Assembly (NCBI GenBank): GCA_012729815.1
Contig: JAAYCJ010000300.1
Span: forward strand, 1 to 62,580
DNA: 62,580 bases
Direction: 5' to 3'
DNA from: Phycisphaerae bacterium
GTDB taxonomy: Bacteria > Planctomycetota > Phycisphaerae > JAAYCJ01
The translations under genes were made by a program, and so were the position numbers. The notes under the pieces were generated by a model. The model did not search any database, was not told where the DNA came from, and saw only the letters and a program-made list of their open reading frames with translations. Of the stretch, positions 24,069-27,589 are shown piece after piece (positions within the stretch are counted from its first letter, which is position 1; the number at the start of each line of letters is the position of its first letter).

Positions 24069-24359
24069 ATGACACAGGAGCAGGAAAAACCGACCGCGGT
24101 GGACGAAGCGCGTCCACAGACCCACACGCCCCCTCCCTACAAGGTGATTCTCCACAACGACGACGTCAACTACATGGAGTATGTGGTCGAGACGATCGCC
24201 AAACTCACGCCGCTTTCAACCGAAGAGGCGGTCATCAAGGCGCTCGAAGCCCACAACGCCGGCTTGGCCGTGCTGCTGGTCTGTCACAAGGAGCGGGCGG
24301 AACTGTACCAGGAGCAGTTCCAGTCGGCCAGCCTGACCGTGACGATCGAACCCGACTGA
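24069..24359 (+). CDS. clpS: ATP-dependent Clp protease adaptor ClpS
   Basis: A 96-residue ClpS. The core is [58 protein letters not shown], with the N-degron-pocket residues in LHNDD and the HxxG/A signature in EAHNAGLAV. ClpS recruits N-end rule substrates to ClpA/ClpC. ATG 24069 (MTQEQEK) is preferred; an upstream TTG is in frame. A Pro/Thr-rich linker precedes the domain. Single gene, divergent from rnpA. Confidence 0.93.
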
Positions 24360-24438: not shown

Positions 24439-24509
24439 AAAAAAACACTTGGGAAAGACTTTTACTCTCTCTCCCAAGTGCTCTCGAACTACTCTCTCTC
24501 CCAGACTGA
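24439..24509 (-). ncRNA. Candidate small RNA of about 71 nt
   Basis: On the minus strand a promoter (TTGACA, 17 bp, TAACAT at 24544-24516) points into a non-coding stretch that ends in a strong intrinsic terminator: a 9-bp stem CACTTGGGA/TCCCAAGTG (24446-24454 and 24472-24480) followed by seven T residues (24445-24439). The predicted transcript begins near 24509. It contains two exact copies of TGGGAGAGAGAGTA (24503-24490 and 24476-24463) 27 nt apart, one in the 5' part and one in the terminator loop. No ORF fits. It is separate from tkt, whose own terminator lies upstream at 24614-24654. Function is unknown. Confidence 0.6.
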
Positions 24510-24515
24510 AGACCT

Positions 24516-24544
24516 ATGTTACAGGAAAAGGCAGGCCCTGTCAA
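24516..24544 (-). promoter_or_regulatory. Sigma70-type promoter of small RNA candidate
   Basis: On the minus strand, a consensus -35 TTGACA (24544-24539), a 17-bp spacer and -10 TAACAT (24521-24516). Confidence 0.65.
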
Positions 24545-24613: not shown

Positions 24614-24654
24614 AAAAAAACCGGCCCCGAACGTGGGTCCGGGGCCGGTTTTTT
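24614..24654 (-). terminator. Intrinsic terminator of the transketolase gene
   Basis: An inverted repeat CCGGCCCCG...CGGGGCCGG flanked by A and T runs, 23 bp after the tkt stop. The minus-strand RNA ends in a run of U, and the plus strand also has a T run, so it could work in both directions. Confidence 0.85.
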
Positions 24655-24676: not shown

Positions 24677-26629
24677 CTACTTGGCCGCGGCTTTCGCCTC
24701 GCGAACCACGTCCTCGACGCTCAGGCCGCAGTAGGCCAGCAGGTCTTCCGGACTCTTGCCCGACTTGGGCACCCGCTCGACGAACATCGACTTGACCTTG
24801 ATATTGCCGACCGCAGCGGCGATCTCCGCCACGTTCGAGGCCAGCCCGCCGATGTAGTTGTCCTCGAGGGTCAGGATCTTGCCGCCGGAAGCCTTGGCCG
24901 CCGCCAGGATCGGCTCGGACTGCAGCGGGAAGCTGTAAGCATCGACCAGACCGGCCTTTACACCCTGCTCCTTGAGCTTGCCGAGCGCGGCGCGGGCCAC
25001 GTGGACCATATAGCCGGTGGCCACGATGGTCAGGTCCGAACCCTCATCGAGCACCTTGGCTCCGCCGATCTCGAAGGTCTCAGCCGGCTTATAGAGCAGC
25101 ACGGTGTCCGGCCGCATCGTCCGGATGTAGACCATGCCCGGATAATCAGCGGCCATCTGCACCATCTTGTAGGCGCTGACCGCGTCGCTGGGGTTGAAGA
25201 TCACCGCCAGCGGCTTGCCGTTTTCCTTGGCGCTGCTCAGGGAGCGGAAGAACGTCATGTCCACCAAGCCCATCTGGCTGGGACCGTCAGCGGCCAGTGA
25301 GATACCGATGTGCGACCCGGCGATCTTGATGTTCGCACGGGTAATCAGCGCCATCTCGATCTGATCGTAGGCCCGGACCAGGAACTTCCCGAAGCTGGAC
25401 GCGAAGGGGATCGCACCGCCCGCCGCCATACCCGCCGCCACCGAAATCAGGTTCTGCTCGGCGATCTTGCCCTCGAAGAAGCGGTCCGGGAAGACCTTAG
25501 TCAGGTAGTTGGCGAAGGTCGAGTTGCTCACGTCGCCGTCGATGGCCACCACGCGGTCGTCGAGCTTGGCCAGTTCGCGAAGGGCCAGACCGTAGGCCCG
25601 GCGGCTGGCGATCTTCTTCTTGGCCTGCCAGCTCTTGAGGAAACCGTCGCCCTGGAGGAGCTGGTCGAAGTCCGGGTCGCCCAGCTTGCCGGTCGCGCCC
25701 TTGAACTGCGGCTGGGCGGCCTGGGGCTTGGCGGGCCTAAACTGCTCGCTCTTGACCTCGGCGGGAACCCCGAGCTTGGCCCGCATGGCGTCCAGATCGC
25801 CGTAGACTTTCTCCAACTTGTCTTCCGGCAAGGGCTTGCCGTGATTGGACTTGTCCTTGAGCTCGTCGGTGCCCCAGCCCTTGACCGTCGCAGCCAGGAT
25901 CACGTACGGGGTCTTGGTCTTACCGACCTCGGCGAGGGCCTCATCGAGCTGTTCGACGTTATGGCCATCCACCGTGGCTACCTGCCAGCCGAACGCCTTG
26001 AACTTGGCGGCGAGGGTGGACTGGGACTGCTGGGGTGATACGTAGTCGGCCTGGCCCTGGCCGTTGCAGTTGACGATGGCGCAGAGGTTGGTGATCTTCT
26101 GATCGACGATGAAATCGGCGGCCTCCCAGATCTGCCCTTCGCGGGACTCGCCGTCGCCGCAGATCACGTAGATCTTCTTGTCGAGCTTGGCCAGCCGGGC
26201 GGCCAGAGCCAATCCGGCCCCCGCCGAAAGCCCCTGCCCCAGCGAGCCGGTGGCGGCGTCGAAGAAGGGGAACCCCTCAGCGGGGTTGGGATGGCCGTCC
26301 AGGACGCTGTCGATCTCGCGGAGCGTATCGACGTCGCCGATCACCAGTTCGCGGGCCGCCGACTTGGACTTGCCCACCACGCCCGCCAGGTCGGCGTAGG
26401 CGGCGTAGACGATCGGCACCGCGTGGCCCTCGGAGAGCACCAGGCGGTCGCTGGCCGGGTTCCACGGGTCCTTCGGATCGTAGCGCATGTGCTTGTACAT
26501 CAATAGGCTGACGATGTGGGCCAGGCTCAAAGCCGAACTGGGGTGTCCGGATTCGGCCTTGGTGGTCATCCGCGCCGATAACTTGCCGATTTCGATTGCA
26601 CGATCGTGCACGAGGGTCTTGAGGTCCAT
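24677..26629 (-). CDS. tkt: Transketolase
   Basis: A 650-residue transketolase. The thiamine-pyrophosphate motif GDGESREGQIWEAADFIVDQKITNLCAIVNCN lies at about 158-189. Earlier, ESGHPSSALSLAHI is the conserved N-terminal active-site segment and GSLGQGLSAGAGLALAARL another. In the second half, IDGDVSNSTF, AEQNLISVAAGMAAGG and GSHIGISLAADGPSQMGLVDM are the pyrimidine-domain motifs. It moves two-carbon units in the pentose phosphate pathway. AGGAG lies 10 nt before the ATG. It is transcribed alone, with its own terminator. The GDGESREGQ form and EQN region fit the subgroup nearer to actinobacterial/eukaryotic transketolases. Confidence 0.95.
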   Translation of the reverse strand: MDLKTLVHDRAIEIGKLSARMTTKAESGHPSSALSLAHIVSLLMYKHMRYDPKDPWNPASDRLVLSEGHAVPIVYAAYADLAGVVGKSKSAARELVIGDVDTLREIDSVLDGHPNPAEGFPFFDAATGSLGQGLSAGAGLALAARLAKLDKKIYVICGDGESREGQIWEAADFIVDQKITNLCAIVNCNGQGQADYVSPQQSQSTLAAKFKAFGWQVATVDGHNVEQLDEALAEVGKTKTPYVILAATVKGWGTDELKDKSNHGKPLPEDKLEKVYGDLDAMRAKLGVPAEVKSEQFRPAKPQAAQPQFKGATGKLGDPDFDQLLQGDGFLKSWQAKKKIASRRAYGLALRELAKLDDRVVAIDGDVSNSTFANYLTKVFPDRFFEGKIAEQNLISVAAGMAAGGAIPFASSFGKFLVRAYDQIEMALITRANIKIAGSHIGISLAADGPSQMGLVDMTFFRSLSSAKENGKPLAVIFNPSDAVSAYKMVQMAADYPGMVYIRTMRPDTVLLYKPAETFEIGGAKVLDEGSDLTIVATGYMVHVARAALGKLKEQGVKAGLVDAYSFPLQSEPILAAAKASGGKILTLEDNYIGGLASNVAEIAAAVGNIKVKSMFVERVPKSGKSPEDLLAYCGLSVEDVVREAKAAAK

Positions 26630-26853: not shown

Positions 26854-27351
26854 CTACGGATTCTCGCCGGCGCGCCGGAGGACCTCGCAAAAGAGGGCGT
26901 CGGAAAGATGGAAACCCGCCATATTCCGCAGGTTCTCCAACTCCTTCTGCAGTGAGGAAATACGCCGCTCCCGATAGGCTCTCAGAAGAACCCCAACGGT
27001 GCCGGTCATCCTCAACCCCAGTGACTTGGCCGCTTGGCGTCCTTCTCGTTCGTCCAGGAGGACCCAGGGCGCGGATGTCTGGCAGGCCAAAGCGATGGCT
27101 TCCGCCTCTCCCTCATCCAGATCGCGGATCAGGGACTGGACGAGACATCTGTCTGCGACGTCTTGAACCCGGATCCACTTGTCTTGGAAGGCCGACGCCA
27201 CTTCAGGGACGCCCGGCAGGTCCTGGTCCAGTCGCAATTCAGAGACGACGGCGGGAGGGACAATGATCTGAGAGAACTGGTGACGCAGCAGGGACAGGCG
27301 TCCGATGATGGCCAGGTTCAGGATGGGCGAGGTGTTACTCACCGCCGGCAT
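26854..27351 (-). CDS. PIN-like toxin, DUF3368 family
   Basis: A 165-residue DUF3368 protein, a PIN-domain relative that is usually the toxin partner of UPF0175 antitoxins. Key segments are VSNTSPILNLAIIGRLSLL at the N-terminus, DLDEGEAEAIALA (conserved acidic pair) and WVLLDEREGRQAAKSLGLRMTGTVGVLLRAYR (a third acidic residue, then the GTxGVL motif). The first catalytic Asp is Asn here (SNTSP), a variant I believe is common in this family. It overlaps the upstream antitoxin gene by 17 bp. Expected to be a metal-dependent RNase. Confidence 0.85.
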   Translation of the reverse strand: MPAVSNTSPILNLAIIGRLSLLRHQFSQIIVPPAVVSELRLDQDLPGVPEVASAFQDKWIRVQDVADRCLVQSLIRDLDEGEAEAIALACQTSAPWVLLDEREGRQAAKSLGLRMTGTVGVLLRAYRERRISSLQKELENLRNMAGFHLSDALFCEVLRRAGENP

Positions 27352-27589
27352 AGGTCAGATCGTCCTCCAGTTCCTCCGAGCCATAGTGCCTGGAAATACC
27401 CCGTTTGCCCACAAGGCTGCCGAATTCCACCTTGCCCATTCCGGCCATCTCCCTTGCCTTGCCGAAGGACAGAAAGCCATGTGCATAGAGAGTCAGTGCA
27501 AGCTCCACCAGAAGCTCTTCCTCAATCCGGTCTTCCGGCAGACGAATGGCCTGAGCGACCCTGTCCGGGATGTTGATCTGAATGCCCAT
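27335..27589 (-). CDS. UPF0175-family antitoxin
   Basis: An 84-residue protein of the UPF0175 family. EEELLVELALTLYAHGFLSFGKAREMAGMGKVEFGSLVGKRGI is the family signature and ends in a helix-turn-helix-like region. It is encoded directly before the DUF3368 toxin with overlapping ends (27335-27351). GGAG precedes the ATG. Members bind DNA and neutralise the partner; it probably autoregulates. Confidence 0.88.
   Translation of the reverse strand: MGIQINIPDRVAQAIRLPEDRIEEELLVELALTLYAHGFLSFGKAREMAGMGKVEFGSLVGKRGISRHYGSEELEDDLTYAGGE

Follow-up and report, generated by a model that had tools for sequence, protein, structure and literature searches.

What does the non-coding DNA between clpS and tkt encode, and does it belong to either gene? 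We analysed the surrounding window (the whole stretch of DNA, 62,580 nt), in which a preliminary description had proposed an independent small RNA on the minus strand at this site. The element has its own promoter between the two neighbour genes and a terminator hairpin followed by a U tract, as an intergenic small RNA would (Table 1).

Table 1. Positions of the predicted RNA element and its neighbours in the window
Feature	Position	Strand	Basis
-35 hexamer TTGACA	24539..24544	-	Promoter scan
-10 hexamer TAACAT, spacer 17	24516..24521	-	Sequence reading and promoter scan
Predicted RNA of ~70 nt, probable start near purine 24507	24439..24507	-	Promoter and U7
First TGGGAGAGAGAGTA, predicted largely single-stranded	24490..24503	-	Window motif search and fold
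Second TGGGAGAGAGAGTA, terminator stem 5' arm and part of loop	24463..24476	-	Motif search and fold
Terminator hairpin CACTTGGGAGAGA / TCTTTCCCAAGTG, 9-nt loop	24446..24480	-	Core common to G000:C191 and relatives
U7 tract	24439..24445	-	Sequence reading
clpS, convergent neighbour	24069..24359	+	Pfam ClpS 2.7e-18
tkt, upstream same-strand neighbour	24677..26629	-	Pfam transketolase domains
Two-way terminator of tkt (probably also clpS)	24615..24654	.	18-nt arms, 94% complementary

The proposed promoter is recovered both by reading the sequence and by a promoter scan, in which TTGACA-17-TAACAT (24544 to 24516, minus strand) has 10/12 promoter matches. It is the sole promoter site within 1.3 kb, where 0.3 would be expected, and when the 75 nt upstream were shuffled 500 times, a single shuffle reached its score. 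The two exact 14-nt motifs are also present as described: TGGGAGAGAGAGTA occurs twice in the 62.6 kb window, with 27 nt from start to start, and dinucleotide shuffling of the intergenic region produced an exact 14-nt repeat in 2 of 5000 cases.

The hairpin at 24446–24480 with its U7 tract folds at −21.6 kcal/mol (z = −6.5), and the 70-nt RNA at −26.8 kcal/mol (z = −4.8), with a 5' part that is predicted to be unstructured. The terminator stem pairs UGGGAGAGA with UCUUUCCCA and comprises 13 bp, or 18 bp with the U tract counted. The hairpin and U7 tract thus stand as first described, but the motif had been wrongly placed in the loop: 9 of the 14 nt of the second TGGGAGAGAGAGTA belong to the stem's 5' arm and GAGUA alone extends into the loop. 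Since its 9-nt loop exceeds the limit of 8 nt in our simple terminator scan, the hairpin was overlooked by that scan. An anti-terminator switch, in which the first motif would pair with the 3' arm of the terminator, is unlikely (−14.4 versus −26.8 kcal/mol).

The RNA is not the 3' end of tkt, because tkt owns a strong terminator at 24615–24654. Nor is the element tied to the clpS–tkt arrangement. Relatives had been suggested as the place to look for the same promoter and terminator between the two genes; the arrangement is not kept in them, and the element is found upstream of other genes instead. In G001 and G002, tkt is followed by other genes and no motif; the element is missing after tkt in both genomes and after clpS in G002. 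The window's order is represented by three genomes in the set, none of them a close relative of the window genome, and for this reason the window copy was not seen conserved in place. Elsewhere in the window (26854–27589, minus strand), a DUF3368-domain protein lies beside an 84-residue protein and resembles a toxin–antitoxin pair.

We searched the 5.47 Mb window genome (G000) for further copies. The 13-mer of TGGGAGAGAGAGTA, with up to one mismatch, gave nothing further bar two unrelated sites, and among 392 genomes of the phylum the exact twin motif was found in the window alone. A DNA-level BLAST search of this genome identified two collinear pieces on contig C191. This paralogue (G000:C191:3261-3341) reads TCTGAGAGAGCAGACTAGATGAACACTTGGGAGAGAGG..TCTCCCAAGTGTTTTTTT; CACTTGGGAGAGAG and TCTCCCAAGTGTTTTTTT are common to both loci. 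The hairpin pattern CTTGGGA..TCCCAAGnnTTTT matches no loci in G000 but these two, and it gave three unlike matches in the 396 other genomes of the class, where control patterns gave zero. Viral contigs containing the hairpin arms proved to be two unrelated palindromes. The C191 copy precedes one or more PEP-CTERM genes; C191a is without a strong promoter and C191b without a full U tract. Two small LuxR-type HTH proteins are encoded in tandem immediately upstream of the RNA paralogue and the PEP-CTERM genes (L089 2328-3126).

A covariance model built from the window and C191 copies with no gene information (R1) matched loci in G009 and G001, each with a consensus promoter on its 5' side and a PEP-CTERM gene on its 3' side. 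A second model (R2), run over 397 genomes, added G009:C20, G607, G585 and G597. The G009:C20 copy precedes a 49-aa mini PEP-CTERM protein and the G607 copy a PEP-CTERM gene; the copies in G585 and G597 have no PEP-CTERM gene behind them. An R1 match in G033 and an R2 match in G426 were rejected as chance hairpins without AGAGAG, and R2 matches in L112 and L124 as ordinary terminators. In a four-sequence alignment of 14 pairs, 93% of the cells are paired and 4 of the 14 pairs have changed on both sides; slid versions of the same stem are 63% paired at most. All 11 copies keep AGAGAG unchanged. Its conservation is not fully accounted for by pairing, since in G009:C27 (L248) the motif appears to be looped. 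A promoter scoring at least 10/12 is situated just upstream in seven of ten copies. No Rfam family matched at the gathering threshold, and relaxed thresholds gave nothing credible.

Copies that stand alone with promoters of their own occur in two genera of family f8, in G585 and, as two tandem copies each with TTGACT-17-TATATT and a common 5' CATTTTCCTCCTCCTTTT, in G597. These RNAs (L221 4236-4547 in G597:C72 and L220 4205-4290 in G585:C4, minus strand) combine a conserved 5' CATTTTCCTCCTCCTTT with a GAGAGAG terminator. They look like trans-acting small RNAs, and CATTTTCCTCCTCCTTT is anti-Shine-Dalgarno-like; the G585 and G597 copies could also be convergent, GA repeats being simple sequence.

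The window copy shares the hairpin of the family and its AGAGAG, which members carry in a U7 terminator, either in the loop or in the 5' arm. It departs from the attenuator form in having no PEP-CTERM gene directly downstream: on its 3' side lies the antisense strand of clpS and nothing PEP-like. Its spacing from −10 hexamer to hairpin is 34 nt, compared with 39–40 nt in the stand-alone copies of G597 and 9–12 nt in leaders with strong promoters. With no gene behind it and a spacing nearer to that of G597, we therefore read it as a stand-alone member of the family. As a prediction, the independent small transcript of the preliminary description is well supported by the promoter, the non-coding body, the terminator, the paralogue in the same genome and the structurally conserved relatives, and the element is best taken as a predicted RNA gene with a sigma-70-type promoter and an intrinsic terminator.

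In G000 and in other families of the class, most members lie a few nucleotides after a promoter and 20–150 nt before a PEP-CTERM start codon. Of the nine matches obtained without recourse to gene information, five lie ahead of a PEP-CTERM gene (p ~1e-6 at an assumed background of 2.5%), a value that is, like the association p-values in general, optimistic, since regions were partly chosen for holding matches or PEP-CTERM genes. The part of G009 unselected for matches, with regions chosen for PEP-CTERM genes alone, adds only two leaders, in L244 and L248.

We counted as leader terminators those situated up to 200 nt upstream of a gene start, as defined by a simple gene caller, and unexplained by an upstream gene. 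They precede 8/14 PEP-CTERM genes versus 2/105 others in G003, 5/7 versus 5/61 in G009 and 1/4 versus 0/26 in G001. The automatic count for G000 is one of six PEP-CTERM genes, or two once the mini gene at C191a is added, a PEL variant that the PEP-CTERM pattern does not recognise. By the same rules, eight other genomes gave 0/21 in the second round, and leader terminators on all PEP-CTERM genes of the class were rejected on this count; together with the 1/6 in G000, it indicates that leader terminators are lineage-specific. The GAGAGA form belongs to f1 (the window's family), f8 (which includes G009) and perhaps f12. In DNA sampled from G000, G001 and G009, GAGAGA is present in all eight PEP-leader terminators versus 2 of 168 other terminators (10/176 overall); terminators sampled in G002, G003 and the eight other genomes contain it once in 294.

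The leader hairpins of G003 differ in sequence and are partly paralogous. At L224, L226 and L235 of this genome, very strong U7 hairpins of unrelated sequence (CGGGGACGGTGA.., CCGGGGATTGCGG..) lie 30–85 nt before the PEP-CTERM start codon. GAGAGAG leaders at L217 4474-4623, L218 4721-4936 and L089 3434-3610 precede mini PEP-CTERM proteins of ~49, 71 and 58–89 residues, respectively, and those at L217 and L218 consist of little beyond a signal-like stretch and the sorting signal. At L219 (G607:C39), two PEP-CTERM signals occur in one 736-residue frame, as though two surface-protein genes had merged or a stop codon were absent.

Our tentative preference is that the window element is a stand-alone RNA from a so far uncatalogued GAGAGAG-terminator family and possibly acts in trans as a decoy. 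The element would combine a sigma-70-type promoter of its own with a short 5' stretch rich in purines and an intrinsic terminator whose 5' arm holds GAGAGAG. The copies in PEP-CTERM leaders look like promoter-proximal transcription attenuators, and a minority (in the window and in the two genera of f8) has no target gene behind it. A putative reader of GAGAGAG, protein or RNA, would act at the PEP-CTERM leaders, and the window RNA may compete for it in trans; that it offers two GAGAGAG sites, one free and one in the hairpin, is what suggests a decoy. A bolder version, which we regard as doubtful, is that GAGAGAG is the site of an undiscovered factor for early termination at PEP-CTERM genes in some families, with the clpS–tkt RNA as its dedicated two-site decoy. 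If true, this would amount to an RNA-level regulon for exosortase-sorted proteins.

The window copy might instead be a relic, a PEP-CTERM leader whose gene was lost or moved and which is perhaps still transcribed but has no present role. Most of the family does precede PEP-CTERM genes whereas this copy is followed by nothing of the kind, and its neighbours clpS and tkt are not conserved. However, promoter, hairpin, U7 tract and the exact 14-nt duplication are all intact, and the spacing given above resembles that of the stand-alone copies of G597 rather than that of strong-promoter leaders. We consider a relic rather unlikely.

It is unlikely that the RNA acts in trans by base pairing, its free 5' UGGGAGAGAGAGUAG being directed at pyrimidine-rich sites in mRNAs. 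In favour of pairing, an idea of the preliminary description, the purine-rich 5' stretch is predicted to be free, and the stand-alone copies of f8 carry another conserved 5' stretch, UUUUCCUCCUCCUUU, that would be able to pair with ribosome-binding sites. The search for partners gave no clear extended target, though: over 12–13 nt, the reverse complement matches the genome only at the locus of the RNA itself, at a repeat on C100 and at one site opposite likely coding sequence. A near-match on C124 was rejected as a target, because the strand with the motif is likely coding sequence and the other strand antisense. The 5' stretch also differs in paralogue C191a, and neither G000 nor 20 relatives have a Pfam match for Hfq, so the RNA does not qualify as an Hfq-dependent small RNA. 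The C100 locus (L090 941-1268) comprises three non-coding direct repeats, 132–142 nt apart, that contain CTCTCTCTCCCTCCCAGGCTTGAGC.

A cis-acting antisense function is unlikely on present evidence. The RNA and clpS are convergent and no terminator belonging to clpS precedes the element, the next one on the plus strand being the two-way hairpin at 24615–24654. Transcription running on past clpS would produce the complement of the entire window RNA, and pairing of the two could shorten the clpS 3' end or make it less stable. However, the family occurs at sites unrelated to clpS, and overlapping ends are frequent in convergent genes and in many cases have no effect.

Sequestration of CsrA by GGA motifs in the manner of CsrB, foreshadowed by the suggestion that GGGA/GGA loops bind a CsrA-type protein, is very improbable despite two csrA genes in the genome (C38:3036-3191 and C281:2228-2371): the RNA has only two GGA sites (both GGGA), one in the stem and the other in a weak hairpin, with none in a stable loop, GGA is not kept in most relatives, whose conserved core is AGAGAG, and no Csr/Rsm covariance model matched even at E up to 5. 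For the same reasons, GGA being neither conserved nor in loops, CsrA is also an unlikely reader of GAGAGAG.

The predicted RNA resembles the CsrB/RsmZ decoys in being a stand-alone RNA with its own promoter and terminator and a repeated short purine-rich site, for which sequestering is proposed. It differs from them in having two sites only, in that these are GAGAGAG rather than GGA exposed in loops, and in having no Rfam match. Its relatives resemble leader transcription attenuators, with a promoter, a U7 hairpin and then a ribosome-binding site and gene within 20–150 nt; unlike in such attenuators, we identified no leader peptide or competing anti-terminator, and no gene follows the window copy. 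The literature that we searched contained no description of such a GAGAGAG-terminator element. Here, a terminator in which AGAGAG never varies is placed directly ahead of several PEP-CTERM genes, across two or three families, and also occurs free-standing in the window; Hfq was not found in these bacteria, whose small RNAs have received little study.

Long non-coding regions ahead of PEP-CTERM genes were noted when the system was described, with a sigma-54 site in Proteobacteria only; the regions outside Proteobacteria remained unexplained, and the authors stated that there had to be additional elements (Haft 2006, PMC1569441). The element described here likewise occurs in the long non-coding region ahead of PEP-CTERM genes. 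Whereas the sigma-54/PrsR site of Proteobacteria is an enhancer/promoter site acting at the DNA level (PMC1569441), it combines a sigma-70-type promoter with an RNA terminator, and it is a testable RNA-level candidate for the PEP-CTERM regulation outside Proteobacteria that was then left open.
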